In this document: piece after piece, positions 2,661-15,273 of the stretch | Numbering within the stretch: the stretch's first letter is position 1 | Layout: the number at the start of each line of letters is the position of its first letter | NCBI GenBank assembly: GCA_003520455.1 | Contig: DOUV01000330.1 | Span: 1-15,273, forward strand | DNA from: Chloroflexota bacterium | GTDB taxonomy: Bacteria; Chloroflexota; Anaerolineae; Ardenticatenales; Ardenticatenaceae | DNA length: 15,273 nt | Direction of reading: 5' to 3' | Notes under the pieces: model-generated | What the model was told of the DNA's origin: nothing | The model's input: the letters and a program-made list of their open reading frames with translations, nothing else | Database searches by the model: none | Made by a program: the position numbers and the translations under genes

Positions 2661-3515
2661 TCAGTCGGCCGGCCCAGGCTGCGGAGCGGCAGTCCGCTCC
2701 GGCGCCTTCGGGATTTTGTCGTTGGGCACGTACTCCGTCGGTAGCGGCGCCACGGCCGGTGGCCGCTTCCGGCCAAGCAGGCCGAGGGCCTCCAGGCTGA
2801 GGGCGCGCTTCAAGAGTTGGATGGCCAGGGCGGGATCGACGCCTTTCGGACAGGCGTCCGTGCACGCTCCGGCGAGATGGCACTGAAACGGTCCGTGCAG
2901 GGCGTCGAGCGCCGCCAGCCGTGGGGCCAGCCCGGCGTCGCGGCAGTCGGTCGTATACCGGAAGGCTTGCGCCAACGGCTGCGGTCCCAGGAAGGCTGAG
3001 TCGGTGGCCAGCGTCGGGCAGGCTGCCATGCACAGGCCGCACTTGATGCAGATCGAGAATTGACCGTAGGCCTCGCGCTCCTCCGGCGTCTGCAAGTACT
3101 CGCTCCCAAATGGTGCGCCGCCGTTTGCAGGGATCAGATGCGGGTGAATGGAAGCGTGCTTCTCGAACAACGGCATCAGATCCGGCACGAGGTCTTTGAC
3201 GGTGGGATAGTTGGGCAGCGGCGCGACCTCGACGATATCCGCCTCGAGGTGCAGCACCTGGGTCTGGCAGGCCAGTCTGGGCCGGCCGTTGATGTACATG
3301 CCGCAGGATCCGCAGATGCCCATCCGGCACGACGAACGCCAGGCGAGGGTGGGGTCCTGCTCGCTCTTGATGAGGTGCAGCGCCTCCAGCACCGTCATGC
3401 CTTCAAAGACAGCCACCTCGCGCGTTTCCCGGCGCGGCCCGGCGTCCTTCTCCGGATCGTAGCGATGCAGGCGGAACGTGATCTTGCGCGCGGGGGCGGA
3501 AGCATTCTTTTCCAT
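2661..3515 (-). CDS. Succinate dehydrogenase / fumarate reductase iron-sulfur subunit
   Basis: Iron-sulfur subunit (284 aa) of complex II; it passes electrons from the flavin of SdhA to quinone at the SdhC/SdhD anchor. All three clusters can be placed: [2Fe-2S] with Cys63, Cys68, Cys71 and Cys83 (CRMGICGSC then LAC); [4Fe-4S] with Cys156, Cys159, Cys162 and Cys222; [3Fe-4S] with Cys166, Cys212 and Cys218 (CHLAGACTDACPKG). The N-terminal ferredoxin fold and C-terminal helical domain are in the usual order. The last ~45 residues are a Pro/Ala-rich tail beyond the conserved core. The start at 3515 is chosen because GAGGT lies about 5 nt upstream on the minus strand. Earlier starts at 3527 (ATGA overlap with sdhD) or 3548 are possible but lack a ribosome binding site. 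Last gene of the fum-sdh operon. Confidence 0.95.
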   Translation of the reverse strand: MEKNASAPARKITFRLHRYDPEKDAGPRRETREVAVFEGMTVLEALHLIKSEQDPTLAWRSSCRMGICGSCGMYINGRPRLACQTQVLHLEADIVEVAPLPNYPTVKDLVPDLMPLFEKHASIHPHLIPANGGAPFGSEYLQTPEEREAYGQFSICIKCGLCMAACPTLATDSAFLGPQPLAQAFRYTTDCRDAGLAPRLAALDALHGPFQCHLAGACTDACPKGVDPALAIQLLKRALSLEALGLLGRKRPPAVAPLPTEYVPNDKIPKAPERTAAPQPGPAD

Positions 3516-3523
3516 ATCAAACC

Positions 3524-3883
3524 TCATCCATTGACGAACGTCCACCACGTGACGTAGCTGCCGTACACGAAGAAGACGAAGCCGATCAGCAGGATTGCCA
3601 CGCTCACGGCCCGGTCCCGCCCGCGCGTGATGGGCAACTCCAGCACGACGCCGCGCAGGCCGTACAGCCCGTGGTAGAGCGCGGCGGCCAGGAACAGGAT
3701 GTAAACCGTGAACTGCCCGACGTCGCGCCCGCGGGCCAGCATCGCCTCGAAGCTGCGTGTGGCTTCAACGCTCTGCCCGGTGAACACCGGGCTGTAGTGC
3801 ATAATCGCGAAGTGCGCTCCCAGCAACACCAGGATGAGCACGGTGGAGCCCAGGCTCAACAGCCACAAACGACTCTCGCGCAT
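3524..3883 (-). CDS. Succinate dehydrogenase membrane anchor, SdhD-like
   Basis: Small membrane anchor (119 aa) of complex II with three predicted transmembrane helices, at about residues 8-28, 57-80 and 92-114. Helix 2 carries YHGLYGLRG with His71. This is the position and motif of a heme b ligand in this family, also seen in the neighbouring SdhC. His24 in helix 1 (AHFAIMHY) is another possible ligand. Assignment rests on size, helix pattern, this motif and position between sdhC and sdhB; anchor subunits are poorly conserved. The start at 3883 is preferred to 3895 because GGAGGT (3893-3888, minus strand) lies 4 nt upstream. The gene then begins 13 nt after the sdhC stop, and sdhB begins 8 nt after its own stop. 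Confidence 0.85.
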   Translation of the reverse strand: MRESRLWLLSLGSTVLILVLLGAHFAIMHYSPVFTGQSVEATRSFEAMLARGRDVGQFTVYILFLAAALYHGLYGLRGVVLELPITRGRDRAVSVAILLIGFVFFVYGSYVTWWTFVNG

Positions 3884-3896
3884 GGTGACCTCCATC

Positions 3897-4346
3897 TCAC
3901 GAGAAGAAGAAACTGAACCCGCCGAACGCCAGCACCAGTGCGGCCAGGGCCATCAGTGCGAAGGTGAGCGGGCGGTGCCGTTTGACCGACGAGGCGTACG
4001 GGTAGACCGGCTGCGCCGGCCGGCCGAGGAAGAAGCCCAACTCGGTCAGCAGCAGCCGGATCCCGTTGAGGCCGTGGAACACAAATGCGGCGAACAGGAG
4101 GTACTCGAGCGCCTTGAAGACCGGTGTCTCGAAGAGTGCCATCAGCGCTCCCCAGGCGGGCGCGCCCGCCACACGCTGGCCAGTCTCAATGATGTGCAGC
4201 AGCAAGTAGACGATCAGCCCGATTCCCGTCAGCCGGTGCAATACGTAGAGATACCGCTCGATCGAATACCGGCCGGCGTACATCCATCCCTTGACTCCCA
4301 GTTGGTTCGGGCGCGGCGCGGGCCGCGCTTTCATCTCAGCGTTCAT
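3897..4346 (-). CDS. Succinate dehydrogenase cytochrome b subunit, SdhC-like
   Basis: Cytochrome b anchor (149 aa) of complex II. It starts with the family-typical segment YSIERYLYVLHRLTG (His37), followed by three transmembrane helices at roughly 35-57, 78-105 and 126-148. Helix 2 has FHGLNGIRLL with His91, the expected heme b ligand; His51 at the end of helix 1 is a second candidate. Together with SdhD this could bind one or two hemes and the quinone. The open frame extends upstream to 4460 inside sdhA. The start at 4346 is chosen because GAGGAG sits just upstream and the family's conserved sequence begins about 25 residues later. The gap to the sdhA stop is 11 nt. Confidence 0.9.
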   Translation of the reverse strand: MNAEMKARPAPRPNQLGVKGWMYAGRYSIERYLYVLHRLTGIGLIVYLLLHIIETGQRVAGAPAWGALMALFETPVFKALEYLLFAAFVFHGLNGIRLLLTELGFFLGRPAQPVYPYASSVKRHRPLTFALMALAALVLAFGGFSFFFS

Positions 4347-4357
4347 TCGCGCTCTCC

Positions 4358-6070
4358 TCAGTACTTCCGCTCGATGGGCTGCCACATCGTGATGGCGACC
4401 GGGATGTATTCCAGGCATGGGCCGTGCGGCGTGCTGTAGGCCAGGGTGTGTTTGAGCCACCGCTCATCGTCGCGGGTGGGAAAGTCCCGGCGGGCGTGAC
4501 CGCCGCGCGACTCTTCACGGGCCAGCGCGCCGGCCGTGGCAACCTCGGCCACATCGAGCATGAAGCCGGTCTCCAGCGCGCGGATCAAGTCGGTGTTGTA
4601 GACCCAGCCCTTATCTGCGACGTGGATGCGCTGATAGCACTGCTTGAGCTCGCGGATCCGGTCCAGGCCCGCCCGCATCTCCTGCCCGGTGCGGTAGACA
4701 CCCATGCGAGCGTCCATTGTCTGGCGCAACTCGGCGCGGATGTGGTAGTGGCTCTCCGTCCCCTGTTGCTTCGCCAGATCGTTGAGGCGTTCTTCCTCGT
4801 CCTGGGCCGCCGCCGTGGGAGCATCCGGCAGGGGGGAGCGCCCGGCGTAGCGCCCTGCGTCCTCGCCGGCGACCCGCCCCCAGAGCAGGCACTCCGCGGT
4901 GGAGTTAGTACCCAGGCGGTTCGCGCCGTGGAGCGACACGCAGGCCGCTTCGCCCGCCGCCCACACATTTTCGGCGATCGTGCGGCCACGCAGGTCGGTG
5001 TGGATGCCGCCCATCGAGTAGTGGGCCACCGGACGGATGGGAATCGGCTTCTCGATAGGGTCGAGCCCGATGTGCTTGATCGCCACCTCGCGGATGAGCG
5101 GCAGGCGCTCGTTGATCTTCGCTGCCCCCAGATGCCGCAAATCCAGGTGCACGTAGTCGAGCCCCTCGGGGCCGGGGAAGCCGCGGCCCTCGAGAATCTC
5201 AGTCGTCTCGGCGCGGGCGATGATGTCGCGCGGAGCGAGTTCCATGCCCTTGGGCGCGTACCTGTCCATGAAGCGCTCGCCCTGTTTGTTGACCAGGTAG
5301 CCGCCCTCGCCGCGACAGGCTTCCGTCATGAGGATGCCGCTCGGGACGAGGCCCGTCGGGTGGAACTGAACGAACTCCATGTCCTTGAGCGGCAAGCCGG
5401 CGCGGTAGGCCATTGCCAACCCGTCGCCGGTCACGGTCTCGGAGTAGGTGGTGAAGCCGAAGATCTGGCCGGCGCCGCCCGTGGCGACGATCAGCGCCTT
5501 GCCGCGGATGAGCAGCACGCGGCCGTGGACCATGTCCAGGACGGTCAACCCGGCAAACAGGCCGTTCTCGATCAAGATCGAAGTCGCGAAGACCTCGTCG
5601 TAGCGCTGCACCTGCTGCGTGTGCTTCAGCAAGGTGTCGTACAGGGTCTGCATCTCCTGGAAGCCAGTTTTGTCCGCGGCGAAGACGGCGCGGGGGTAGC
5701 TGTGCCCGCCGAACGGCCGCTGCGCGATCCTCCCGTCGGGCCGGCGCGACCACGGGAGGCCCCAGTGGTCGAGCTCGAGGATCTCCCTGGGCATCTCGTG
5801 GACGAAGAACTCGACCGCGTCCTGGTCGGCCAGAAAGTCGGAGCCCTTGACGGTGTCCCAGGCGTGCAACTCGACGCTGTCGCCCTCGTCCGGGCGCAGG
5901 ACGGCCGCCGTGCCGCCCTCGGCTGCCACCGAGTGGGCGCGCATCAACTGTAGCTTGGAGACGAGAGCAATGTCCAGTTGGCCGCCGCTCACCCTGGTCG
6001 CCTCCAGGGCCGCCCGCAGACCCGCGAGTCCTGACCCCAAGATGACCAGGTCGTGTATGACAGTTTCCAT
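4358..6070 (-). CDS. Succinate dehydrogenase / fumarate reductase flavoprotein subunit
   Basis: Catalytic FAD subunit (570 aa), interconverting succinate and fumarate. The dinucleotide-binding loop GSGLAG is at 12-17. MRAHSVAAEGGT (His46) is the site where FAD is normally attached covalently. Substrate and catalytic residues line up with the family: His237 in QFHPTG, Glu250 in TEACRGEGG, Arg281 in APRDIIAR (proton-transfer Arg), His350 in HYSMGG and Arg385 in GANRLGTNS. Length and the C-terminal helical bundle are normal. Sequence alone does not settle whether the complex runs as dehydrogenase or fumarate reductase; a fumarase in the same operon is compatible with both. The start at 6070 has AAGGA about 9 nt upstream and lies 21 nt after the fumarase beta stop. 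Confidence 0.96.
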   Translation of the reverse strand: METVIHDLVILGSGLAGLRAALEATRVSGGQLDIALVSKLQLMRAHSVAAEGGTAAVLRPDEGDSVELHAWDTVKGSDFLADQDAVEFFVHEMPREILELDHWGLPWSRRPDGRIAQRPFGGHSYPRAVFAADKTGFQEMQTLYDTLLKHTQQVQRYDEVFATSILIENGLFAGLTVLDMVHGRVLLIRGKALIVATGGAGQIFGFTTYSETVTGDGLAMAYRAGLPLKDMEFVQFHPTGLVPSGILMTEACRGEGGYLVNKQGERFMDRYAPKGMELAPRDIIARAETTEILEGRGFPGPEGLDYVHLDLRHLGAAKINERLPLIREVAIKHIGLDPIEKPIPIRPVAHYSMGGIHTDLRGRTIAENVWAAGEAACVSLHGANRLGTNSTAECLLWGRVAGEDAGRYAGRSPLPDAPTAAAQDEEERLNDLAKQQGTESHYHIRAELRQTMDARMGVYRTGQEMRAGLDRIRELKQCYQRIHVADKGWVYNTDLIRALETGFMLDVAEVATAGALAREESRGGHARRDFPTRDDERWLKHTLAYSTPHGPCLEYIPVAITMWQPIERKY

Positions 6071-6091: not shown

Positions 6092-6703
6092 CTAGGCCAC
6101 CAACTCCGCGAGCTTGACCCTGGACGCCTGCTCGACGGCAGCGTGCAAGCTGTGGCCGTGGCTGTCCATGGTCACGACGGCGGGAAAGTCCTTGACGCGA
6201 ATCTTCCAGAATGCCTCCGGCGCGCCGAACTCGTCCTTCTTGAAGACGTCAATCACTTCCTCGACCGAGGCAGCGATGAGCGAACCGGCGCCGCCGATGG
6301 CGTGCAGGTAGACGGCGGTGTGCTTCTGGCACGCCTCGAGCGTGCGCGTGCCCATGCCGCCCTTGCCGATGATGAGCTTGACGTTGAAGTGGCCGATGAC
6401 CAGGTCCTCGTAGACCTCTTCGCGAGCGCTGGTTGTCGGCCCGGCGGAGACGAACTCGTAGCGACCGTCCACCTGCCGGACGACCGGCCCGCAGTGATAG
6501 ATGGCACCGCCGTTCAGGTCCGCCTTGAGGATCTCGTACAACGCCAGCTCACCGGCGGGCGGCGCGGCCTTGACGAAGCGCTCGACCATGTACTTGTGGG
6601 CGGCGTCGCGCGCGGTGAGCATCACACCCGAGACAGAGACCGTGTCACCGACTCTAAGCTGGGCGATGACTTCGTCTGAGGCCGGGAGCGTAATCGGGAC
6701 CAT
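6092..6703 (-). CDS. Class I (Fe-S) fumarate hydratase, beta subunit
   Basis: C-terminal-type subunit (203 aa) of the oxygen-sensitive two-subunit fumarase; hydrates fumarate to malate together with the alpha subunit. Family motifs in order: ARDAAH (31-36), the HCGP segment (70-73), AGPTTSAR (87-94), which helps bind the substrate, and GKGGM (113-117), followed by the Gly/Ala-rich HAIGGAG stretch. L-tartrate dehydratase beta is the close alternative in this family; the sdh genes 21 nt downstream favour fumarase. The ATG at 6703 is chosen because AGGAGG (6717-6712, minus strand) lies 8 nt upstream; a GTG at 6712 overlaps that site and is unlikely. The symbol denotes the beta subunit, not the E. 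coli FumB isozyme. Confidence 0.92.
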   Translation of the reverse strand: MVPITLPASDEVIAQLRVGDTVSVSGVMLTARDAAHKYMVERFVKAAPPAGELALYEILKADLNGGAIYHCGPVVRQVDGRYEFVSAGPTTSAREEVYEDLVIGHFNVKLIIGKGGMGTRTLEACQKHTAVYLHAIGGAGSLIAASVEEVIDVFKKDEFGAPEAFWKIRVKDFPAVVTMDSHGHSLHAAVEQASRVKLAELVA

Positions 6704-6762
6704 AGTTTCCACCTCCTGATCCGTGCGTTGGTTTGTGCCGATAGTGTCTGTTGAATCGAGAC

Positions 6763-6778
6763 GAGCAGCTACCTGCTC
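6763..6778 (-). other. Intercistronic hairpin between fumarase alpha and beta genes
   Basis: Arms GAGCAG (6763-6768) and CTGCTC (6773-6778) with a 4-nt loop lie in the 114-nt gap, by far the largest in the operon. No T-run follows on the minus strand, so a terminator is unlikely. A role in mRNA processing or stability is possible but unproven. Confidence 0.4.
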
Positions 6779-6817
6779 TCTTCTCCACGTCGAGAACGCC
6801 AGGCGCGCACGGTACGG

Positions 6818-7693
6818 TCAAGTGACCTGATACTCACCATCACGCCACGTGAGTGAGCGCCGACGGTGAGCCCAGCACATGTAGGCCACAGTGACGAAGA
6901 AGCTGGCCGGGTGGCGGTGCGGTGTACCAATCTGCGTTGCGAGCAGGGTCGTCTGGCCGCCGAATCCCATCGGGCCGATGCCGAGTTGGTTGGCCTCGCC
7001 GGTCAGGCGCTGTTCCAGCGCGGCCACCTCCGGCTCGGGTGAGGCCTCATCCAGCGTGCGGAAGAGCTGTTCCTTGGCCGTGACGTAGGAGACGCCGCGG
7101 TCGCCGCCGACCGCGATCCCGAGGATGCCGGGGGCGCAGCCCTTGCCCTGCGCTTTGTAGACCGCGTCGAGCGCCACACGGCGTACGCCCTCCAGGTCGC
7201 GGCCCGCCTTGAGCTCGGCGTTGGGTAGCGAGTACTGCGCGCTAACATTCTCGCAGCCGCCCCCCTTGAGCATCAGATCGGCTTTGAGTTCGCGCTCCTC
7301 CCACTCCTCAAAGTGGATGGTGGGCACGCCCTCACCGAGGTTATTACCGGTGTTCTTGCCAGTGATGGGATTCACGGCGTTGGGGCGCAGGTACGCGCGG
7401 CGGGTGGCCTCCGTCAGGGCGGTCTCGATTTGGGCCCGGAGGGCGCGGGTGGACCAGCCCTCGGGGTAGTGGACGTAGAAGATCGTCGTGCCCGTGTCCT
7501 GGCAGATGGGCGTCGAGTTCTTCCGCGCCACAGCCACATTCTCGAGGATGGTGTCGAGCGCGCTGCGCGCGGGTGATCCCTCGGTCTCCTTCTCGCGCGC
7601 GACTTGCAGCGCCTGCTCTACATCGCCCGATAGATCGGTGGCAGTGCGACGGATCAGTTCCAGAAATGCTTCCGTGAGGTCCGGTGTGGTCAT
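6818..7693 (-). CDS. Class I (Fe-S) fumarate hydratase, alpha subunit
   Basis: N-terminal-type subunit (291 aa) of the two-subunit fumarase, carrying the [4Fe-4S] cluster whose free iron binds substrate. The three cluster cysteines are visible: Cys64 in TPICQDTGT, Cys147 in KGGGCENVS and Cys186 in GKGCAPGILG. The NPITGKNTGNNLGEGVP stretch (108-124) is also characteristic. Length is typical. The alternative is L-tartrate dehydratase alpha or a related Fe-S hydro-lyase; the shared operon with succinate dehydrogenase argues for fumarase. The start at 7693 has AAAGGAG about 6 nt upstream. First gene of the operon, divergent from the DUF2236 gene. The symbol denotes the alpha subunit. Confidence 0.93.
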   Translation of the reverse strand: MTTPDLTEAFLELIRRTATDLSGDVEQALQVAREKETEGSPARSALDTILENVAVARKNSTPICQDTGTTIFYVHYPEGWSTRALRAQIETALTEATRRAYLRPNAVNPITGKNTGNNLGEGVPTIHFEEWEERELKADLMLKGGGCENVSAQYSLPNAELKAGRDLEGVRRVALDAVYKAQGKGCAPGILGIAVGGDRGVSYVTAKEQLFRTLDEASPEPEVAALEQRLTGEANQLGIGPMGFGGQTTLLATQIGTPHRHPASFFVTVAYMCWAHRRRSLTWRDGEYQVT

Positions 7694-8061
7694 ACCCGAC
7701 TCCTTTCAGGGCAGTGTGGTACCGAACGGGCGTCCAGAAGAGTGGGGGTGGTCGCCGCGGCGGCTCGCCAAACTGGATCGCCCAGGCTATTCTCGTGAGG
7801 ATAGGGGAAGGATGGACGAGAGACTAGTGCGAGAAATCATATGTCTTGGGTGACCCTAGGCCTCACTCAGCAGATAACTCATCACTCAGCACGGAGCACT
7901 TTGCTTCACCAGCGATTGAGGGCCGCACGATAACGATCACCTCAACAGCGCCCGGCCACGTTCAGCTCTCGCCCCGGATTGACGAAACACGGTGGCTGCT
8001 TAAGATGAAAGCGACGCGCTCAGTACCCGGCGGAGATATTTTGACGAAGGGGGAAAATCAC
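7694..8061. other. Divergent intergenic region between fum-sdh operon and DUF2236 gene
   Basis: Must hold the promoters of both divergent units, but I could not pick convincing -35/-10 pairs. The frame of the plus-strand gene stays open back to a TTG at 7846, yet that stretch (Ser/Thr-rich, no family similarity, no ribosome binding site) reads as non-coding. A 10-bp direct repeat lies at 7863-7891. Confidence 0.45.
7863..7891. repeat. Tandem 10-bp direct repeat, possible regulator site
   Basis: TCACTCAGCA occurs at 7863-7872 and again at 7882-7891, a period of 19 bp, close to two helical turns. Its position in a divergent promoter region suits a regulator binding site, but chance or a decayed simple repeat is possible. 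Confidence 0.35.
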
Positions 8062-8952
8062 GTGTCCCACCGCACTTTCCTCAAACGTATTCTCCAACTC
8101 GACCCGGTGCGCGACCACACAGAGATCGTTTACCTTGATGCCTTTCACGAATTTCCGTTCGACACGACCCGCTCGCTCGAGTTCGCCTTGTTCCGTACCT
8201 ATGCGGTGCCCAGTATCGCCACCCTGCTTGATCAGACCGGCGAGTTTGCTCAGCGGGCCCGCAAGCGCTATGACGACACGGACCTCCTGCTGAGCGAGAT
8301 CCTGGAGCATGGTTACGATAGCGAACGCGGTCGGGCTGCGCTCCGCCGCATGAACCGCCAGCATGGCCGCTTCCACATCTCGAACGAGGATTTTCTCTAT
8401 GTCCTGTCCACGTTTGTTTTCGAACCAGTTCGCTGGATTGCACGTTTCGGCTACCGGCCGATGGTGGACCAGGAGCGGCTGGCCTGGTTCTACTTCTGGC
8501 GTCAAGTTGGGCGGCGTATGAACATCCACTCGATTCCAGAAGAGTACGCTGCGTTCGAGCGTTACAACGTTGACTACGAACGTGAGCATTTTCGGTACAC
8601 CCCCGCCAACCGCCGCATCGCAGAAGCGACGCGCGATCTGTTCCTGGGATTCCTCCTGCCGAAACCGTTGTGGCGTCTGGGTGAGCCGGCGATCTATGCG
8701 ATGCTAGACGAACCGTTGCTGGAAGCATTCCGCTTTCCCCGGCCCTCGACGCTCCTCCGGAGGAGTGTCGAGGGGGCGCTCACGTTACGTGGCCGCCTGA
8801 TACGTCTGCTGCCCGAGAGGCAACGGCCGCATCTGCGGACGGTCATCAAGCGTCCGACATATCCCGATGGGTACCACATTGAAGAGCTTGGACCACCGAT
8901 TGAGCGCGGGTCGAAGCAGGGGGACGCCCCAGCAAGGGAAGAGATGCCATAA
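8062..8952 (+). CDS. DUF2236 (MpaB / rubber-oxygenase family) protein
   Basis: Protein of 296 aa in the DUF2236 family, which includes the fungal oxygenase MpaB and is related to latex-clearing protein, a heme b oxygenase. Family landmarks: LDPVRDHTEIV near the start (12-23), ALFRTYAVPSIATLLDQTGEF (42-62), the RMNRQHGRF block with His101 as a likely heme-contact residue, FLYVLSTFVFEPVRW (111-125), FYFWRQVGRRMNIHSIP (143-159) and YEREHFRYTP (172-181). It may be an oxygenase, but most members have no known function. The GTG at 8062 is chosen because AAGGGGGA (8047-8054) sits 7 nt upstream and the family's conserved part begins a few residues later; an ATG at 8005 is the alternative. An almost perfect inverted repeat lies inside the gene (8743-8774). 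No operon partner. Confidence 0.85.
   Translation: MSHRTFLKRILQLDPVRDHTEIVYLDAFHEFPFDTTRSLEFALFRTYAVPSIATLLDQTGEFAQRARKRYDDTDLLLSEILEHGYDSERGRAALRRMNRQHGRFHISNEDFLYVLSTFVFEPVRWIARFGYRPMVDQERLAWFYFWRQVGRRMNIHSIPEEYAAFERYNVDYEREHFRYTPANRRIAEATRDLFLGFLLPKPLWRLGEPAIYAMLDEPLLEAFRFPRPSTLLRRSVEGALTLRGRLIRLLPERQRPHLRTVIKRPTYPDGYHIEELGPPIERGSKQGDAPAREEMP
8743..8774 (+). repeat. Inverted repeat inside the DUF2236 gene
   Basis: Arms 8743-8758 and 8759-8774 are complementary at 15 of 16 positions, the exception being a G:U-compatible pair, with no spacer. The reading frame passes through it, giving PSTLLRRSVEG. It may be a REP-like element absorbed into the coding sequence or a mRNA hairpin. Confidence 0.75.
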
Positions 8953-9641
8953 GGCCGAACGAGGAGAAGCCGCTCTCAGGCTGCGACGTACCTGATCGTT
9001 CTGGGCCGCCGGCTCGTAGTGAGCCGCCTGGCCCGGATCGAGCGCTTCCTCGGAGCCAGCTGCGGCGCACCTCGACAGCCGAGCAGTGCTCGACCGGTCT
9101 GCTCCTTGATGATGATGCGCCAGCATGCTATACCAGGCGAGCAGATGGCTCTTCGCCCGCAGGTGGAGAGTCCAATCTTCCAAAGAATCTCCATCCGCAG
9201 CCAGCACCCCGGTGCTCGAGCCCTCTACCCATCTCTGATCGTTTGCGGCAGCGATGGCCTTTTCGTCGCGGTCGTCATCCCATGCTACATTCGAATTGCG
9301 AAATAACGAGAGGCCTTCGTACAAGGCGAAACCTCTGGTGCGGTGTTTCTCGCTGATCGACTCGCCGCACCATCCCTATCCGGTGCGCCCGGTCAGTTGA
9401 CCGGGTGTGGTAAGAGGTGGCCGTTGTCCCCGGTCTGTGGCCTGTGTCAACGTGTGCTCTCACGACGGGCTGGATTGAGGAGTGGGGGATGTGGCAACAG
9501 ACAACAGACCGTAACGCTGCCAGGAAAGCCCTTTTCGTCTCTGTGCCCTGGCGTCTTAACCTTAAGAATCGGGTCGATGGTTCTCCCGATGAGTGCTCCT
9601 CAGAGTCAACAGAGATGATCGGCCGGGAGGAACTTACTGTC
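8953..9641. other. Long intergenic region with several hairpins
   Basis: About 690 bp with no supported gene. A minus-strand frame (8785-9324) and the upstream extension of the hydrolase frame (from 9417) are open but show no family similarity. The stretch 9309-9405 has consecutive inverted repeats, described separately. GGGAGG (9625-9630) is the ribosome binding site of the hydrolase. Confidence 0.45.
9309..9405 (+). other. Cluster of three inverted repeats, possible structured leader
   Basis: Stem 1: AGAGG (9309-9313) with CCTCT (9332-9336), enclosing CCTT/AAGG. Stem 2: TGGTGCGG (9336-9343) with CCGCACCA (9365-9372), perfect over 8 bp. Stem 3: CCCGGTCA (9388-9395) with TGACCGGG (9398-9405), perfect, with a 2-nt spacer, also operator-like as DNA. 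No known riboswitch class was recognised. Confidence 0.4.
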
Positions 9642-10412
9642 ATGAGAGTCACCGTCTGCCAACTGAGTGACGAGCGGGATGGATTTGCGTCCGACTGGGA
9701 GGGGCTCGTTGCGCACGTCAAGAGCGAATCCAGTGACCTGGTGCTGTTGCCTGAGATGCCCTTCTCCCGCTGGTTCGCGTTGGGCCGCGATTTTGATCCG
9801 GGCGTGTGGCAAGCGGCCGTCGCGGCCCACGATGCCTGGCTGGCGCGCTTGCACCCACTCGCACCAGCGGTCGTACTCGGCTCGCGGCCCGTGAACGCCG
9901 GCAGCTATCGACGAAACGAAGGGTTCATCTGGGATCAAGAGCTCGGATACCGCGCCGTCCATTCCAAGTATTACCTACCCAACGAAGAAGGCTATTGGGA
10001 GGCCTCCTGGTACGGCCGGGGTGAGGGCGATTTCACGCCGGTTCAGAGTGGCGTGGCGCGGATTGGGTTTGCGATTTGTACCGAACTCTGGTTTCTGGAG
10101 CGTGCCCGGGCCTACGGCCAGCAAGGGGTTCAGATCATCGTTACGCCCCGCGCCACGGGCAGCGTGACCGTCGACAAGTGGCTCGTTGGCGGGCGGGCCT
10201 GCGCGGTTGTCTCGGGCGCCTTCTCGCTCTCGTCCAACCGTGTCAGTGCTGCGGGTCAGGCGACGGATTTCGGTGGGCAGGGCTGGGTTGTCGATCCGGA
10301 CGGGGCCGTGCTCGGGCTCACCTCGCGGGCACAGCCCTTCGTGACGGTCGAGATTGACCTCCACGCAGCCGAGTTGGCCAGGCAGACATATCCGCGGTAT
10401 GTCCGTGACTAG
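9642..10412 (+). CDS. Carbon-nitrogen hydrolase, nitrilase superfamily
   Basis: Cytosolic hydrolase of 256 aa that would cleave a C-N bond (amide, carbamoyl or nitrile) using a Glu-Lys-Cys triad: Glu38 in LLPEMPFSRW, Lys109 in VHSKYYLPNEEGYWE and Cys146 in GFAICTELWF. The usual alpha-beta-beta-alpha order and C-terminal strand GWVVDPDGAVLG with VTVEIDL are present. Amidases and N-carbamoyl hydrolases are more likely than true nitrilases for this length and motif set, but the substrate is unknown. The ATG at 9642 fits the family, whose members start directly with the beta strand MRVTVCQL. GGGAGG lies 11 nt upstream, a slightly long spacing. The frame is open back to 9417 without protein-like content. 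Stands alone. Confidence 0.9.
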   Translation: MRVTVCQLSDERDGFASDWEGLVAHVKSESSDLVLLPEMPFSRWFALGRDFDPGVWQAAVAAHDAWLARLHPLAPAVVLGSRPVNAGSYRRNEGFIWDQELGYRAVHSKYYLPNEEGYWEASWYGRGEGDFTPVQSGVARIGFAICTELWFLERARAYGQQGVQIIVTPRATGSVTVDKWLVGGRACAVVSGAFSLSSNRVSAAGQATDFGGQGWVVDPDGAVLGLTSRAQPFVTVEIDLHAAELARQTYPRYVRD

Positions 10413-10703
10413 CGCGCCGGTCAAGGCGTCAGACTTCCGAAGTCTGGGAGGGACCGTGCTGGCGCAAAGCGCGCTCCGACGACGGGGATCGAGGCGGGCA
10501 CCTGTCTCGAACAAGACTTCGGAAGTCTCGTCCCCCCTCGCGGGAATGACGTGACCGGGGCTCTAGCAACAGCCGGCCCCAATTCACAGTGAAGGCAATC
10601 GGCGCGTGGGGATCGCCGTGGGCCGGTGAGCCGACTGCTGATCGGACGACGCGCGCTGGGAAGCCGCGCGATTCTTCAAGCGATTCGAAATGCGAGAACC
10701 AAG
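10413..10703. other. Repeat-bearing intergenic region before tag
   Basis: About 290 bp without a gene. It contains two AGACTTC-type palindromes (10430-10446 and 10514-10528), a GCGCAAAGCGC hairpin between them and, at about 10537-10550, a CGCGGGAATGAC segment of a kind widely dispersed in bacterial genomes (from memory). No promoter was picked. Confidence 0.5.
10430..10528. repeat. Two AGACTTC / GAAGTCT palindromic repeats
   Basis: CAGACTTC-C-GAAGTCTG at 10430-10446 and AGACTTC-G-GAAGTCT at 10514-10528 are the same palindrome in two copies about 80 bp apart, with only the centre base changed. They flank the region between the hydrolase and tag. I recall this palindrome as a common dispersed repeat in Chloroflexota genomes. 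Confidence 0.7.
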
Positions 10704-11261
10704 ATGAAACGCTGCGAATGGGCGACGACCGAACTTTCAACGACCTACCACGACCAGGAGTGGGGCGTACCGTTGCACGACGATCGCGCCTTGTTTGAGT
10801 TCCTTGTCCTGGAAGGCGCCCAGGCCGGGCTCAGTTGGGAGACTGTTCTCAAGAAGCGCGCCAACTACCGGTTGGCTTTCGACAACTTTGACGCTCGCGC
10901 GATCGCAGTGTACGACCAGCGCAAAGTAGACCAATTACTCGCCAATCCGGGGATCATTCGCAATCGACTCAAGATCGCCGCCGCGATCCAGAACGCCAAA
11001 GCCTTTCTCGAGGTGCAAAAGGAGTTCGGCAGTTTCGATGCGTATCTGTGGCGGTACGTGGGTGGCCGGCCCAGGAAGAATGCCTGGCACTCGCTGGACG
11101 AGATCCCGGTCCGGACGCCGGAATCCGATGCCTTGAGCAAAGACCTGACGCGGCGCGGCTTCAAGTTCGTCGGCTCAACCATCTGCTATGCGTTCATGCA
11201 GGCCGTTGGGATGGTCAACGACCACACCGTCGATTGCTTCAGGTACGTGGAGATTGAATGA
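10704..11261 (+). CDS. DNA-3-methyladenine glycosylase I
   Basis: Base-excision repair glycosylase (185 aa) that removes 3-methyladenine from alkylated DNA. It aligns end to end with the E. coli Tag family. The structural zinc ligands are all present: Cys4 (MKRCEWA), His16 (TYHDQEWG), His174 and Cys178 (NDHTVDCFRY). Glu37 in LEGAQAGLSW, Tyr15 and Trp20 of the base pocket, and the RRGFKFVGSTICYAFMQA segment are conserved. The start at 10704 is chosen because the family begins with M-x-x-C; the ribosome binding site is weak (GAGA at 10694-10697). The frame is open back to 10626 without similarity. Single-gene unit; an SOS or adaptive-response site was not seen. Confidence 0.96.
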   Translation: MKRCEWATTELSTTYHDQEWGVPLHDDRALFEFLVLEGAQAGLSWETVLKKRANYRLAFDNFDARAIAVYDQRKVDQLLANPGIIRNRLKIAAAIQNAKAFLEVQKEFGSFDAYLWRYVGGRPRKNAWHSLDEIPVRTPESDALSKDLTRRGFKFVGSTICYAFMQAVGMVNDHTVDCFRYVEIE

Positions 11262-11800
11262 GCCCACCGGCGTGAAAATCAGCAGAGCTATCTTCTGGTG
11301 AGGCGGGCGTCCACCGACAATCCTCTAAAAGCCCAGTAGCGACTCAAGGTTCACCGCGGGTTTCGACACCTGCAACGTTGTCTCTCGGCCGGCAAGCATT
11401 TCTTACCAACTCTTGGTCTACTCACAAGCGAAAGTCTGGCGGCGCGGGCGCCGGGCCGGGCACCTCCTCTTCACAAACGATTGTTGGCGTCCTTCGGTGG
11501 TTTCAAGTTAGAATAACAGACCGCGGGGTCGCCGGCTGACGCAGAGAGCCGACGCCTTCGTTCCGCAACCGGTGCTCTTTCGAGGTTGTCCGGGATGGGT
11601 GCCGCGCGACCGATCGCGGTGAGGGTTCTTCGGCTGCACGCGGCCACGACTCTCGTTGCGAGGTCTGCGCTTCCGATGGGTCCACAAACGAACCGGCTGG
11701 TGACCACTTCGCCGGCGCTTCCCACTCGCAGGCCACCATCCATCTTCCAGCGAGCGGAGCAGGCCAGTATCCGATCACAGGCAAGGGAGAGCGAAGCAAC
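11262..11800. other. Long intergenic region upstream of the kinase-lyase pair
   Basis: About 540 bp with no supported gene on either strand. A possible -10 box and leader for the kinase lie near 11484-11514. Some local inverted repeats occur (for example CCGCG / CGCGG near 11600-11620), but no riboswitch or terminator was recognised. It ends with AAGGGAGA (11783-11790), the ribosome binding site of the kinase. Confidence 0.45.
11484..11514 (+). promoter_or_regulatory. Weak candidate promoter for the kinase-lyase pair
   Basis: TTGGCG (11484-11489) and TAGAAT (11509-11514; 5 of 6 consensus bases) are 19 bp apart, longer than ideal. It lies in a locally AT-richer patch and would give a leader of about 280 nt. 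The evidence is thin. Confidence 0.25.
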
Positions 11801-13384
11801 GTGCCAGCCGACCAGGACAAGTACATCCTCGCCGTAGACCTCGGTACGTCCGGCCTCAAGGTCGCCTTGGTTTCCAGTCGCGGCGACGTTGTCGGCTGCG
11901 AGATTGAAGCCCTGCCGCTCTTCCTCCTTCCGGATGGCGGGGCCGAGCAACATCCGGACGATTGGTGGAATGGCATCAAAAATGCGACCAGGAGATTGGT
12001 GGGCAGCGGGCTCGTTCCGATCGACGAGATTGTCGCGGTCAGTTGCACGGCCCAATGGTCGGGTACAGTTGCGGTTGATCGCGGTGGATACCCGCTGATG
12101 AAGGCCATCATCTGGATGGACTCCCGCGGGGCCCGCTACGTGAAGCGCGTGACCGGCGGACCGATCACAGTTGAGGGCTACGGCATCGAAAAGCTGCTGA
12201 TCTGGCTCCGCTTGACGGGCGGGATTCCGGCACACTCCGGGAAGGATTCGATTGCCCACATCCTCTATATCAGGAATGAGTTGCCTGAGATCTACAGGCA
12301 AACCTACAAATTCCTCGAGCCCAAAGACTACCTCAACCTGCGCCTGACCGGCAGGTATGCCGCTTCATACGACTCGATCGCCCTGCACTGGGTGACTGAT
12401 AACCGAAACATCACGCAGATTGTCTACGACGAGCGGCTCCTCAAGATGGTAGCGCTCGAGCGGGAGAAGCTGCCCGACCTGCAGCGCGCCATCGACATCC
12501 TCGGCCCGATCAAGCCGGAGGTCGCCGCCGAGTTGGGGCTGAACGAGAAGGTGCAAGTCGTGGTGGGGACGCCCGATGTTCACTCGGCAGCCATCGGTGC
12601 GGGCGCCGTGCGGGATTACGAGGGTCATCTCTACATCGGGACCTCGTCCTGGCTGACCTGTCACGTTCCATTCAAGAAGACAGATATCCTTCACAACATG
12701 GCTTCGCTCCCCTCGCCGATTCCGGGAAGATACTTTATCGCCAACGAGCAGGAATGTGCGGGCGTCTGCCTGGACGTCTTGCGGGACAATATCCTGTATC
12801 ACCGGGATGAGTTGGCGGCAGCACCGCCGCACGATGTCTACGACCACTTCAACGAGGTTGCCGCGCGGGTCCCTGCCGGGAGCGACAAGCTGATCTTCAC
12901 GCCCTGGCTCTATGGAGAACGAACCCCGGTCGAGGATCGTTTTGTCCGGGGTGGATTCTTCAATCAATCTCTCAAAACCACGCGCGAGCATTTCATCAGG
13001 GCCGTGTTCGAGGGTGTGGCATACAACTCGAGGTGGCTCCTTGGTTCGGTGGAGAGGTTCGCCCGCCGGCGGTTGGACCCAATCAATATGATCGGCGGCG
13101 GAGCGAATTCGAATCTCTGGTGCCAGATTCATGCCGATGTTCTTGATCGAACCATCCGGCAGGTGAAGGCGCCGATCTGGGCCAATGCCCGCGGGGCGGC
13201 CTTTCTGGCCTCCGCGGCGCTAGGATACATCACGCTCGATGAGATCCGCGAGCAGGTTCAAATCACCAACACCTACGAACCCAATCCGGAGAACCGTGCG
13301 ATCTACGACGAATTGTTCAAGGAATTTGTGAATCTCTACAAGAGGAACCGGGAGATCTACGCGCGACTGAACCGGGCTATGTAG
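11801..13384 (+). CDS. FGGY-family carbohydrate kinase, xylulokinase-like
   Basis: ATP-dependent sugar or polyol kinase of 527 aa. The N-terminal phosphate-binding motif [11 protein letters not shown] (13-23), WMDSRG (105-110), the catalytic Asp259 in [13 protein letters not shown] and the C-terminal adenosine-binding [12 protein letters not shown] (432-443) identify the FGGY family. Overall layout resembles xylulokinase, but xylulokinases usually carry a different substrate loop and occur beside xylose isomerase, which is absent here. The natural substrate is open, and the adjacent lyase suggests a phosphorylated amino alcohol. The start is GTG at 11801, with AAGGGAGA 10 nt upstream. The lyase gene starts 50 nt after its stop, consistent with one transcript. 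Confidence 0.9.
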
Positions 13385-13434
13385 CCGCTGCGGGATGCTC
13401 GGGCCAACTTTGGCAGACCGGTCGGGAGGAAGTG

Positions 13435-14955
13435 ATGGATCTCGTGAAGATGATTCAGGCTCGACTTGGGCGGGTGGATCCACGCCTCATGGGGATGGTG
13501 GAGGCACGGGTCACATCCATCCCGTTCGTCAAGGCGCGGCTGCAAAAAGAATACGATGGGCTGATGCACGAGTTGGAGAGTTCCCTGAGGCCCTACAAGG
13601 ATGGTTTTGTCAATGTCTCCCGTCTCCCGGAGGTCGGCCGCGACCGGGCAATGATTCTGCGGGAGATGGCGGCGTTCAAATCTCTTGAGGAGGCGCGCTG
13701 GAAAGAGGGCTTCGTGTCGGGTGCGGTGTACCACGGCGACGACGACCACATCGATTTCCTCAACCAGGTGTATGCCCTTCATTCACAGAGCAACCCGCTC
13801 CATTCCGACCTGTGGCCGAGTATCACGAAATTCGAGGCCGAAATCGTGGCAATGACGGCCAACATGCTCGGCGCCGGCGAGGCCGGTGGCGGCCCGGAGA
13901 ATGAGATTTGCGGGGTCGTTTCGTCAGGTGGGACGGAAAGTATCCTCCTGGCGATGAAGGCCTATCGAGACTGGGCGAGGGAGAAGAAACAGATCACCAA
14001 ACCCGAAATGATCGTTCCTTCCACGGCCCATGCCGCCTTTGACAAAGCGGCCCAGTATTTCAGCATCAAGCTGATCCGGGTCCCCGTCGGCGCCGATTAT
14101 GCCGCCGATGTGGCAGCAACCAGGAGGGCAATCACGAGAAATACCATCGTCATCGTGGGATCGGCGACGTCGTTTCCCCACGGCATCATTGATCCCATCG
14201 GGGCGCTGTCCGAACTGGCGCGGGAGCAGGGCATTGGGTTTCACACGGATGCCTGTCTGGGTGGCTTTGTACTCCCTTGGGCCAGAAAGCTGGGCTATCC
14301 GGTCTCAGCCTTCGATTTCAACCTGCCCGGTGTGACCTCCATCTCAGCCGATACGCACAAATTCGGGTATGCTGCCAAGGGCACCTCGGTCGTTCTGTAT
14401 CGTGGGTTCGAGCTACGGCACTACCAGTACTACACGATCACTGATTGGCCCGGTGGTCTGTACTTCTCTCCAACCTTCGCCGGGAGCCGGCCCGGCGCGC
14501 TGAGCGCCACCGCCTGGGCAGCGATGGTGTCTCTGGGAGAGCAGGGGTATCTGGAGGCCACGAAGCGAATTCTGGAGACGGCTGCGTTCATTCGCCGGAA
14601 GATCGAGAAGATCCCCGACCTCCACGTGCTCGGGGATCCGCTCTGGGTGATCGCGTTCGCCTCCCAGGAACTGGACATCTATAAGATTATGGATGCCATG
14701 AGCACGAGACAGTGGAACTTGAACGGCCTGCACCGCCCGCCTGCTGTCCACCTCTGTGTGACCCTGCGGCATACGCGCCCGGGTGTTGCGGAGAGATTCA
14801 TCGAGGATTTGAAAGCGGCTGTCGAGGATGTCAGGCTGAATCCCGACGAGAAGGGGAGGATGGCTCCTGTGTACGGGATGGCCGCGACGCTGCCGCTGCG
14901 CGGGGTCGTGGGTGACATGCTCAAACGGTACATGGATGTGTTGTACAAAGTGTAG
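13435..14955 (+). CDS. Sphingosine-1-phosphate lyase-like PLP enzyme
   Basis: PLP-dependent aldehyde-lyase of 506 aa. The family cleaves sphingosine 1-phosphate-type 2-amino-3-hydroxy-1-phosphates into phosphoethanolamine and an aldehyde. Stretches that match human SGPL1 closely (recalled): VSGAVYHGD (94-102), [10 protein letters not shown] (119-128), [17 protein letters not shown] (163-179), [11 protein letters not shown] (199-209), HTDACLGGF (270-278), [14 protein letters not shown] (299-312) and [10 protein letters not shown]. Lys309 is the PLP Schiff-base lysine, His199 stacks on PLP and Asp272 binds the pyridine nitrogen. Tyr99, His123 and Lys315 match phosphate-binding residues known from the Symbiobacterium enzyme, where the PLP lysine is Lys311. 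There is no N-terminal membrane anchor, as expected for a bacterial form. The start is ATG 13435 (GGAGG 5 nt upstream); GTG 13432 is the alternative. Glutamate decarboxylases share the fold but not these motifs. True substrate unknown. Confidence 0.92.
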
Positions 14956-15130
14956 GGTGCTTGCGCGGCGCACGGAGGAGCAAGAGTTTCCCTTTGGCGG
15001 GAGACGACTTGGGGGTACACTTTGGGGGTCGCCAGTGAGAGTTCTGTTGTGTCTCCTCGCTGTCCGAACGCCGGGCACCCCCGGCATGCTGCAATGCCCC
15101 CGGCAGGCGCGGCGGTTCAATCCCTGAGTT

Positions 15131-15148
15131 TGTTCGTTATAACGAACA
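15131..15148. promoter_or_regulatory. 18-bp perfect palindrome, operator candidate
   Basis: TGTTCGTTATAACGAACA reads identically on both strands with no spacer. It is AT-rich in a GC-rich setting and ends 19 bp before the -35 box of the next promoter, a typical place for an activator or repressor dimer site. The regulator family cannot be named. Confidence 0.65.
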
Positions 15149-15167
15149 CGAGCCCGCCAGGTCGAAC

Positions 15168-15196
15168 TTGCCAAGCGTCGCGCAGTCGCGTATTAT
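15168..15196 (+). promoter_or_regulatory. Sigma70-type promoter pointing out of the window
   Basis: TTGCCA (15168-15173) and TATTAT (15191-15196) are separated by exactly 17 bp. Both boxes are close to consensus (TTGACA with 4 matches, TATAAT with 5). Transcription would start near 15203 and run rightward into a gene not included here. Confidence 0.55.
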
Positions 15197-15253
15197 TGGC
15201 ACAGGCGAGACGAGAACATCGGTCACGGCGGCCTGGTGCCGGGCGAGAGCCGG

Positions 15254-15267
15254 GCGACTGAAGTCGC
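15254..15267. repeat. GCGACT/AGTCGC palindromic repeat
   Basis: GCGACTGAAGTCGC forms a 6-bp stem with a GA centre. The same palindrome core is, from memory, a frequent dispersed repeat in Chloroflexota and some other bacteria. It lies in the leader of the predicted outgoing transcript, so its placement there may matter for that mRNA. Confidence 0.5.
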
Positions 15268-15273
15268 GGCTGG

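Follow-up and report, generated by a model that had tools for sequence, protein, structure and literature searches.

To our knowledge, the known sphingosine kinases are of the DAGK type, and bacterial sphingosine-1-phosphate (S1P) lyases were crystallised years ago without a clear answer as to the source of their phosphorylated substrate. In eukaryotes, SphK/LCB4 and SGPL1/DPL1 carry out a chemistry like the one proposed below, in which a long-chain base is phosphorylated at C1 and then split by a retro-aldol reaction into phosphoethanolamine and an aldehyde (PMC6148460). The natural function of the S1P lyase of Symbiobacterium thermophilum (StSPL, 3mad) is called still unknown in PMC3148216, where sphingolipid catabolism is offered as a guess. 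The FGGY kinases form a separate group, for which a review tabulates nine functions, the substrate in each case being a sugar, a polyol or gluconate (PMC3245297, Table 1); none of the FGGY kinases in that review acts on an amine or a lipid, their clefts close over the substrate, and in two of them, fuculokinase and rhamnulokinase, the phosphate goes to C1 of a ketose. Here, we describe a locus in which an FGGY kinase gene and an S1P lyase gene lie side by side.

A kinase gene followed by a lyase gene

The window, that is the whole stretch of DNA that was analysed, comprises 15,273 nucleotides of a Chloroflexota contig and contains the following features, all on the forward strand.

11801..13384, +, kinase of the FGGY family, proposed to phosphorylate C1 of a sphingoid base or 2-amino-1,3-diol (Pfam FGGY_N and FGGY_C, XylB model, subfamily alignment A2, tree)
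12056..12061, +, codons W86-S87 of the kinase, motif QWSG (alignment; xylulokinase 2itm has QMHG)
12575..12577, +, codon D259 of the kinase, aligned with an XylB Asp (alignment)
13385..13434, +, intergenic stretch of 50 nt, from the kinase stop to the lyase ATG (sequence)
13424..13429, +, GGGAGG, separated by 5 nt from ATG 13435 and probably the ribosome-binding site of the lyase gene (sequence)
13435..14955, +, S1P lyase (S1PL; PLP-dependent aldehyde-lyase), 506 aa (670 bits to 3mad, 14 of 14 functional residues)
14359..14361, +, codon K310 of the lyase (numbering from GTG 13432), PLP lysine, corresponding to Lys311 in the Symbiobacterium enzyme (alignment)

The kinase reading frame encodes 527 aa. 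That of the lyase, 13432-14955, encodes 507 aa if counted from the GTG; the ATG three nucleotides further on is the more likely start, as judged from the position of the GGGAGG, and the public copy of the protein (P0003) likewise has 506 aa. An earlier, sequence-only reading of this DNA had described two genes with a 50-nt gap, and the distance from stop codon to ATG is exactly 50 nt. Both proteins also match a 10.4 Mb metagenome-assembled contig of an Ardenticatenaceae bacterium. The 540 nt 5' of the kinase are without a called gene, and the gene caller gave none between the 3' side of the lyase and the window end; antisense reading frames are present. A scan of 11262-15273 for sigma-70 promoters and terminators returned about as many sites as shuffled sequence (1 versus 1.0 and 4 versus 3.0), and is thus uninformative on co-transcription of the two genes. 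A larger operon around the pair was considered and rejected, the neighbours annotated at lyase-type loci being varied and mostly housekeeping genes.

The lyase belongs to the S1P lyase family

Among solved structures, the best match of the lyase is StSPL (3mad; 670 bits, residues 46-507), followed at greater distance by human S1PL (444 bits) and by the Burkholderia and Legionella enzymes of the same family (5k1r and 4w8i; 416 and 239 bits), while the first family outside the S1P lyases scored 99 bits. Each of the ten best distinct solved sequences carries the name S1P lyase or sphinganine-1-phosphate aldolase, so that the closest solved relatives over nearly the full length of the protein are S1P lyases. 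Furthermore, the window lyase keeps all 14 functional residues listed for the Symbiobacterium enzyme in Table 3 of PMC6148460, which comprise the PLP lysine, the PLP cup and sandwich, the substrate-phosphate residues and the substrate-entry Tyr. Across 91 distinct close lyases, 11 of these positions are kept without exception; the remaining three are Ala98 (kept in 88), Thr168 (89) and His309 (90). None of the 91 close or 10 distant distinct lyases lacks the PLP lysine (102 lyases minus 1 repeat; the kinase counts below use 163 minus 20 repeats). In terms of family, the enzyme is an S1P lyase, and its substrate would by homology be a sphingoid-base 1-phosphate.

The kinase is an FGGY protein scoring below the xylulokinase cut-off

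The kinase matches Pfam FGGY_N (132 bits) and FGGY_C (87 bits), both over their full length, and shares fold and domains with xylulokinase, gluconokinase, L-fuculokinase and rhamnulokinase. A DAGK catalytic domain was not found in the domain search, in line with the sequence-only reading, which called the enzyme an FGGY kinase and placed the known sphingosine kinases in the DAGK family; the proposed route thus differs from that of the known sphingosine kinases. Whereas the eukaryotic system joins a DAGK kinase to a lyase homologous to the one described here, the window carries an FGGY kinase in a two-gene bacterial unit.

The kinase lies under the cut-off of every NCBIfam model that it matched, the best curated ones being xylulokinase and gluconokinase, and reached 266.8 bits with the XylB model (TIGR01312) against a cut-off of 380.25. 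Its QWSG replaces the QMHG of xylulokinase 2itm at what we take to be a pocket position; among 143 distinct kinases, 106 have the W and 110 the S. D259, presumably the equivalent of the XylB catalytic base Asp233, is D in 143 of 143. In the kinase tree, which came from a quick search after thinning the 121 kinases to 86 and adding one long-branch outgroup, and in which the program flagged meeting long branches, one row labelled C (L102) was placed inside the B group. Selenocysteine was considered because in-frame stops had been reported in some kinases. It was rejected for L095, L096 and L087, whose gene calls are intact reading frames ending at the flagged stop, which is thus the terminal codon.

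Kinase and lyase adjoin in several phyla

A kinase gene lies upstream of the lyase in 70 of the 75 loci with informative upstream DNA among the best 80 of 593 candidates, a figure that describes close relatives. Surveys were centred on the genomes of loci L005, L011 and L034, whose phylum labels they follow, and counted kinase matches of at least 45% and lyase matches of at least 49% identity. The kinase adjoins 10 of 12 lyase matches in Chloroflexota, 40 of 43 in Myxococcota and 2 of 6 in the phylum of G008, where just 2 of 23 kinase matches have a lyase beside them. Rows left out by these thresholds were 15 of 32 kinases and 10 of 22 lyases in Chloroflexota, 2 of 45 and 43 of 86 in Myxococcota (the kinase pieces of G302 C377 being one row), and 5 of 28 and 9 of 15 in the phylum of G008. 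The left-out lyases mostly have no neighbouring kinase, with the exception of G288 (43%, kinase 36%).

In the top-120 homologue lists of the two proteins, 18 contigs of identical nucleotide count were shared, compared with a mean of 1.2 and a maximum of 4 in 100 shifted controls. Adjacency of kinase and lyase is far above chance, and the locus and genome surveys give a concordant picture. The order is reversed in two loci (L093 and L094), divergent pairs (L090-L092; 44-46% identity for the kinase, 46-49% for the lyase) are still side by side, and kinase and lyase distances are correlated (r = 0.92, 84 distinct loci). The sequence-only reading would have been undermined by a pair that is not conserved; instead, the pair is found in several phyla, with either gene coming first. 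Of the genome search proposed with that reading, the part concerning conserved pairs was successful. Beyond kinase and lyase, no family recurs at over 10 of the 81 loci, and no gene of sugar catabolism was seen repeatedly.

Partners of the kinase relatives lie within amine chemistry

Some genes nevertheless hold a fixed place in subsets of lyase loci: a pyruvate:ferredoxin-oxidoreductase gene lies 3' of the lyase in 8 loci, and a FAAH-like amidase gene in 6 of 80 (best 80 of 593). In a second type of locus, the kinase relatives are accompanied by a class III aminotransferase instead of the lyase, often together with an aldolase and, in one group, also with a RuBisCO-like protein. In a third type, a saccharopine-dehydrogenase-like enzyme takes the place of the lyase. 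The homologues of the partner aminotransferase include glutamate-1-semialdehyde aminomutases (up to 219 bits) and 6hbs (92 bits), which is related but not the closest homologue and bears on the alternative module only. We take 6hbs to be the fumonisin-degrading aminopentol aminotransferase, a class III enzyme with a sphingoid-like amino alcohol as its substrate.

Amine chemistry is common to all three partner types, in contrast to the setting of the sugar FGGY kinases. This bears on the possibility that the product of the kinase is an ordinary ketose phosphate and that its neighbours are linked by regulation or transfer history alone. The best-scoring curated models, and the xylulokinase name that many homologues carry in one source, point that way. 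However, the XylB score is 113 bits below its cut-off, the annotated neighbours are not sugar genes, none of 20 annotated neighbour representatives belongs to pentose catabolism, the pair persists whichever gene comes first and where the copies have diverged, and partner swaps remain inside amine chemistry. We consider a ketose kinase, which would have spoken against the sequence-only reading, very improbable.

The kinase might instead act downstream of or in parallel to the lyase and not on the amino alcohol itself; its substrate could be, for example, a 2-hydroxy-aldehyde after its release, or a keto form. A keto form would be a plausible kinase substrate in the aminotransferase and saccharopine-dehydrogenase types, and five of the 75 informative loci (best 80 of 593) have a lyase with no adjoining kinase. 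Four of those five genomes, however, carry the kinase elsewhere, and S1P lyase is reported to be inactive on unphosphorylated sphinganine (PMC6148460), so that phosphorylation must, on that report, come first. We consider a kinase acting downstream or in parallel improbable.

Ceramidases and the choice of substrate

In locus L101, a ceramidase gene lies about 1 kb upstream of the kinase (508 bits to PF04734; 401 bits to the solved neutral ceramidase 4wgk), and in G643 the kinase has a tandem of two ceramidases at a distance of about 3 kb. Both are aminotransferase-type and not lyase-type loci and belong to one order; the adjacency thus concerns two genomes, with several of the 20 examined regions incomplete, and was spotted after inspecting many neighbour families, though a sphingoid substrate predicts it. 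Strong ceramidase matches occur in 4 of 155 genomes, all four with the kinase (Fisher P = 3.8e-4, kinship ignored); the match in G623 is fragmented, and neither G623 nor G644 has ceramidase and kinase on one contig. In Myxococcota, a full-length ceramidase is present in 33 of 40 pair genomes, 7 being without one, versus 18 of 106 others (kinship ignored). PF04734 was found in none of 10 pair genomes of Chloroflexota, the phylum of the window.

The sequence-only reading had left amino polyol and long-chain base as alternatives. As the ceramidase co-occurs with the kinase clade and adjoins the kinase in two genomes, the balance tilts toward a sphingoid base, though not in Chloroflexota. Alternatively, the kinase could act on an imported short amino polyol, such as a 2-amino-2-deoxy-alditol, and the lyase would then release phosphoethanolamine and a short hydroxy-aldehyde. 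Small polyols and a closed cleft are the habit of FGGY kinases, an MFS transporter gene is found repeatedly at aminotransferase-type loci and next to the reversed lyase-kinase pair, and the Chloroflexota pair genomes fit with their lack of PF04734 matches. Against a small soluble substrate stand the ceramidase and FAAH-like amidase associations and the lyase itself, whose closest relatives are proven S1P lyases and in which the substrate-entry Tyr is retained; we regard such a substrate as unlikely, with a modest chance of being right.

Discussion

Collectively, these findings suggest that the recurrent kinase-lyase pair is probably a bacterial route of sphingolipid-backbone breakdown, with a kinase unrelated to the animal and fungal one. 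On balance, we favour a self-contained module of two enzymes degrading sphingoid bases or very similar 2-amino-1,3-diols. In the first step, modelled on the C1 phosphorylation of ketoses by fuculokinase and rhamnulokinase, the FGGY kinase would use ATP to phosphorylate R-CHOH-CH(NH2)-CH2OH at its C1 hydroxyl; in the second, the PLP lyase would split the C2-C3 bond of the presumed product to give phosphoethanolamine and an aldehyde. Ceramides or other N-acylated lipids would most likely be the source of the substrate, which a ceramidase or a FAAH-like amidase would set free; the gene for such an enzyme usually does not lie close by. The kinase-plus-lyase reading made from this DNA earlier is supported by comparative genomics, short of proof.

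The kinase relatives may serve other fates of like substrates, namely transamination followed by an aldolase and/or a RuBisCO-like enzyme, or a saccharopine-dehydrogenase-like oxidation. More tentatively, and with rather less confidence than in the two-enzyme module, the kinase clade could be a second, independently evolved sphingoid-base kinase and the common gate to three dismantling routes. These would be C2-C3 cleavage by the lyase; transamination followed by methionine-salvage- or DHAP-shunt-like steps (class II aldolase family and RuBisCO-like protein), their substrate being the 1-phospho-2-keto-3,4-diol from a base of the phytosphingosine type; and the saccharopine-dehydrogenase-like route.

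No description of an FGGY kinase-S1P lyase pair was found among the matches listed from titles and abstract openings of the open-licence literature, a scope that leaves subscription papers and preprints outside. The pair offers bacterial S1P lyases a concrete candidate partner for making their substrate, and the partner swaps of the kinase predict two further pathways. If this reading is true, the FGGY family would reach from sugars to amino alcohols or amino-lipids, many 'xylulokinase' annotations would need correction, and sediment and soil bacteria of the Anaerolineae, Desulfobacterota and Myxococcota would have a route for sphingolipid use.

The kinase and lyase genes of the window

Two adjoining genes were identified in the window:

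11801-13384, + strand: FGGY kinase gene (Pfam FGGY_N and FGGY_C)
13435-14955, + strand: S1P lyase gene (Pfam Pyridoxal_deC with Aminotran_5), with an in-frame GTG three bases before the ATG

This confirmed the kinase and lyase separated by 50 nt of the sequence-only reading; GGGAGG lies ahead of the lyase start. Both proteins are matched by proteins of one 10.4 Mb Ardenticatenaceae bacterium contig (100% and 98%). The top model for the kinase was xylulokinase, yet the score was 113 bits below the model cut-off, and in an alignment the window kinase possessed the motif QWSG, compared with QMHG in xylulokinase 2itm. The W of this motif was present in 106 and the S in 110 of 143 distinct kinases.

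The genes upstream of the pair at 7846-11261, encoding an MpaB/rubber-oxygenase-like protein, a carbon-nitrogen hydrolase, and a 3-methyladenine glycosylase, are apparently unrelated to it. Minus-strand genes at 2661-6070 resemble succinate dehydrogenase subunits by eye, two of them clustering with genes in L026, L029, and L033 (L numbers denote loci fetched from genomes), and a fumarate hydratase-like gene (Pfam Fumerase) is located at 6818-7693 on the same strand. A 264-amino-acid protein lacking a Pfam match (1521-2315, + strand) contains QEVGHTFGLAHQD, which we take to resemble the metzincin protease motif, but with Gln for the first His.

Identity of the lyase

Among solved structures, the window lyase was nearest to S1P lyases (Symbiobacterium, 670 bits; human, 444 bits; yeast, 376 bits; lowest, 239 bits), while the first other family, tyrosine/aspartate decarboxylase, reached only 99 bits. 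Table 3 of PMC6148460 gives 14 positions for the Symbiobacterium S1P lyase. All 14 were present in the window lyase when aligned to the solved Symbiobacterium chain, the numbering of which is that of the paper plus one (verified at Lys311, His310, Cys276, and Asp274). Distinct lyases from the fetched loci numbered 101, comprising 91 close and 10 distant ones. In the close lyases 11 of the 14 positions were invariant, and the remaining three were kept in 88 (Ala), 89 (Thr), and 90 (the His310 equivalent) of 91; in the distant lyases, the phosphate-contact Ala and His and also the cup Thr were variable. Judged by these residues, the window protein is predicted to be a real S1P lyase.

According to PMC6148460, S1P lyase does not turn over unphosphorylated sphinganine, and the sphingosine kinases so far known belong to the DAGK family, in line with the sequence-only reading. 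The natural function of the Symbiobacterium enzyme is called still unknown in PMC3148216.

Conservation of the kinase-lyase pair

Contigs matched by exact size were shared between the kinase and lyase homologue lists in 18 cases, whereas lists shifted as a control shared 1.2 on average. We next scanned GTDB species genomes with a lyase alignment and took the best 80 of 593 candidate loci; a kinase was present at 70 of these 80, three of the kinases being cut by a contig end and that of L022 lying in two pieces. Judged by record titles, the pairs fall in Chloroflexota, Desulfobacteraceae, other 'Deltaproteobacteria', Myxococcota, Spirochaetota, Zixiibacteriota, KSB1, and Neomarinimicrobiota. 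According to gene calls, 65 of the 68 kinase-family genes placeable against a called lyase were its directly upstream same-strand neighbour, with most gaps between -4 and 185 bp. At five of the ten loci without a kinase, the contig ends 39-328 bp upstream of the lyase. At the others (L002, L034, L043, L073, and L077), no kinase was found upstream despite at least 819 bp of DNA there; four of these five genomes carry a kinase elsewhere (best copy, 52-61% identity), and a search of the L002 genome, G007, returned distant FGGY matches only.

Family clustering at the close lyase loci showed that, besides kinase and lyase, every gene family was confined to 10 or fewer of the 81 loci. At L077 (11475-16200), genes for an ACT-domain protein, a glutamine-synthetase-like protein, a C26 peptidase, and an aldehyde ferredoxin oxidoreductase (Pfam) come after the kinase-less lyase, and by clustering the same neighbour families accompany the kinase-less lyase of L073 (11449-16864); this gene set could handle ethanolamine and aldehyde.

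Phylum surveys, which do not take adjacency as their starting point, were limited to matches of at least 45% (kinase) and 49% (lyase) identity; the names Chloroflexota and Myxococcota follow the titles of L005 (genome G001) and L011 (genome G003), whose phyla were surveyed. A same-strand kinase lay within 400 bp of 10/12 lyase matches in Chloroflexota (251 genomes) and of 40/43 in Myxococcota (146 genomes). In the phylum of the Desulfobacterales genome carrying L034 (198 genomes), a kinase was beside the lyase in 2/6 cases and within 3 kb in 3/6, and the lyase adjoined only 2 of 23 kinase matches, most kinases there having no lyase neighbour. Kinase and lyase distances correlated over 84 loci (r = 0.92), to which shared ancestry of the genomes contributes. 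A deeply diverged adjoining pair was also observed at L128 (genome G288, contig C387), where 10 bp separate the genes and identity to the window proteins is 35% for the kinase and 43% for the lyase.

Alternative partners of the kinase

We surveyed 20 regions with kinases of 33-61% identity and 40 further regions, three of the latter without a kinase, and found three partner types beside the kinase. Type A, the S1P lyase, also occurred as a divergent pair in L090-L092 (kinase 44-46%, lyase 46-49%) and in reversed gene order followed by an MFS gene in L093 and L094. Type B, a class III aminotransferase (12 loci; Pfam), was accompanied by a class II aldolase in 11/12 loci, an MFS transporter in 8/12, and a TetR regulator in 6/12, of the same families throughout. 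Type C, a saccharopine-dehydrogenase-like protein, was mostly encoded directly upstream of the kinase (18 loci, including L107 at 6620-9500), a recurring putative two-gene unit. An N-sulphoglucosamine sulphohydrolase-type sulfatase lies downstream of the type C kinase in L095 (9782-11344), and L096 and L099 contain proteins clustering with it.

Of 121 near full-length kinases, 85 were type A, 18 type C, 12 type B, and 6 none of the three. In a kinase tree from a quick search with a long-branch outgroup, partner types clustered (10 changes versus 32.9 in shuffles), with type A spread at the base and types B and C nested inside. Each of the partner types acts on amines, which is what an amino alcohol, or the keto form of one, as kinase substrate would predict. 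PMC3245297 lists nine functions for the FGGY family, all on sugars, polyols, or gluconate, with fuculokinase and rhamnulokinase acting at C1.

Evidence for a proposed sphingoid-base substrate

We propose that the kinase would add phosphate at C1 of a sphingoid base, or of a closely similar compound, and that the lyase would then yield phosphoethanolamine and an aldehyde. At type B loci, with phytosphingosine as the base, the product of transamination plus phosphorylation at C1 would be a 1-phospho-2-keto-3,4-diol. 5-Methylthioribulose 1-phosphate has the same head group, and both class II aldolase-family and RuBisCO-like enzymes are known for that compound; this would explain why a RuBisCO-like protein is encoded near some of the kinases. 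Such a protein was present near the kinase in L101, L102, L104, L105, L088, and L089, and in 17/20 further regions; two of these 20 show the L104 and L105 sites again with wider flanks. At many type B loci the RuBisCO-like protein is followed by a protein of about 358-374 amino acids without a Pfam match (L101, 4055-5179; L104, 3911-4987).

The kinase of L101 is 61% identical to that of the window, and its locus is a candidate for a new sphingoid-base pathway:

L101, 3357-14319: MFS, neutral ceramidase, TetR, FGGY kinase, class III aminotransferase, RuBisCO-like protein, and 374-amino-acid protein genes, with a divergent class II aldolase gene

The ceramidase gene (PF04734, 508 bits; PF17048, 161 bits; solved neutral ceramidase 4wgk, 401 bits) is flanked by the MFS and TetR genes; it shares the strand of the kinase and lies about 1 kb upstream of it. 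Among 20 wider-flank regions, one more had a ceramidase near the kinase: L166 (genome G643), with two tandem copies on the opposite strand, the nearest match 2.8 kb away. Kinases of this clade occur in 23 of 155 genomes of the order to which L101 belongs. Strong PF04734 matches (best above 150 bits) were found in only 4 of the 155, all four with the kinase (Fisher P = 3.8e-4, kinship ignored); at a looser level, the kinase was present in 7/14 genomes with a match versus 16/141 others (P = 0.0011, kinship ignored). In Myxococcota, 33/40 pair genomes encoded a full-length ceramidase versus 18/106 others, kinship again ignored. Against a sphingoid base count the 7/40 Myxococcota pair genomes lacking a full-length ceramidase and the 0/10 Chloroflexota pair genomes with PF04734, in a search that found the family in 34 genomes. 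In six Chloroflexota loci, the lyase is followed by a FAAH-like amidase gene (425 bits to a fatty acid amide hydrolase; next kind of enzyme, 228 bits), a putative enzyme that could release an amine from an amide lipid.

Collectively, pairing, partner swaps, and the partial ceramidase association lend comparative-genomic support to the kinase-then-lyase interpretation of the sequence-only reading. By title or abstract start, we found no description of an FGGY kinase/S1P lyase pair in the open-licence literature. The predicted route consists of a kinase plus a lyase, as in eukaryotes; in contrast, the bacterial kinase is unrelated and has alternative partners.
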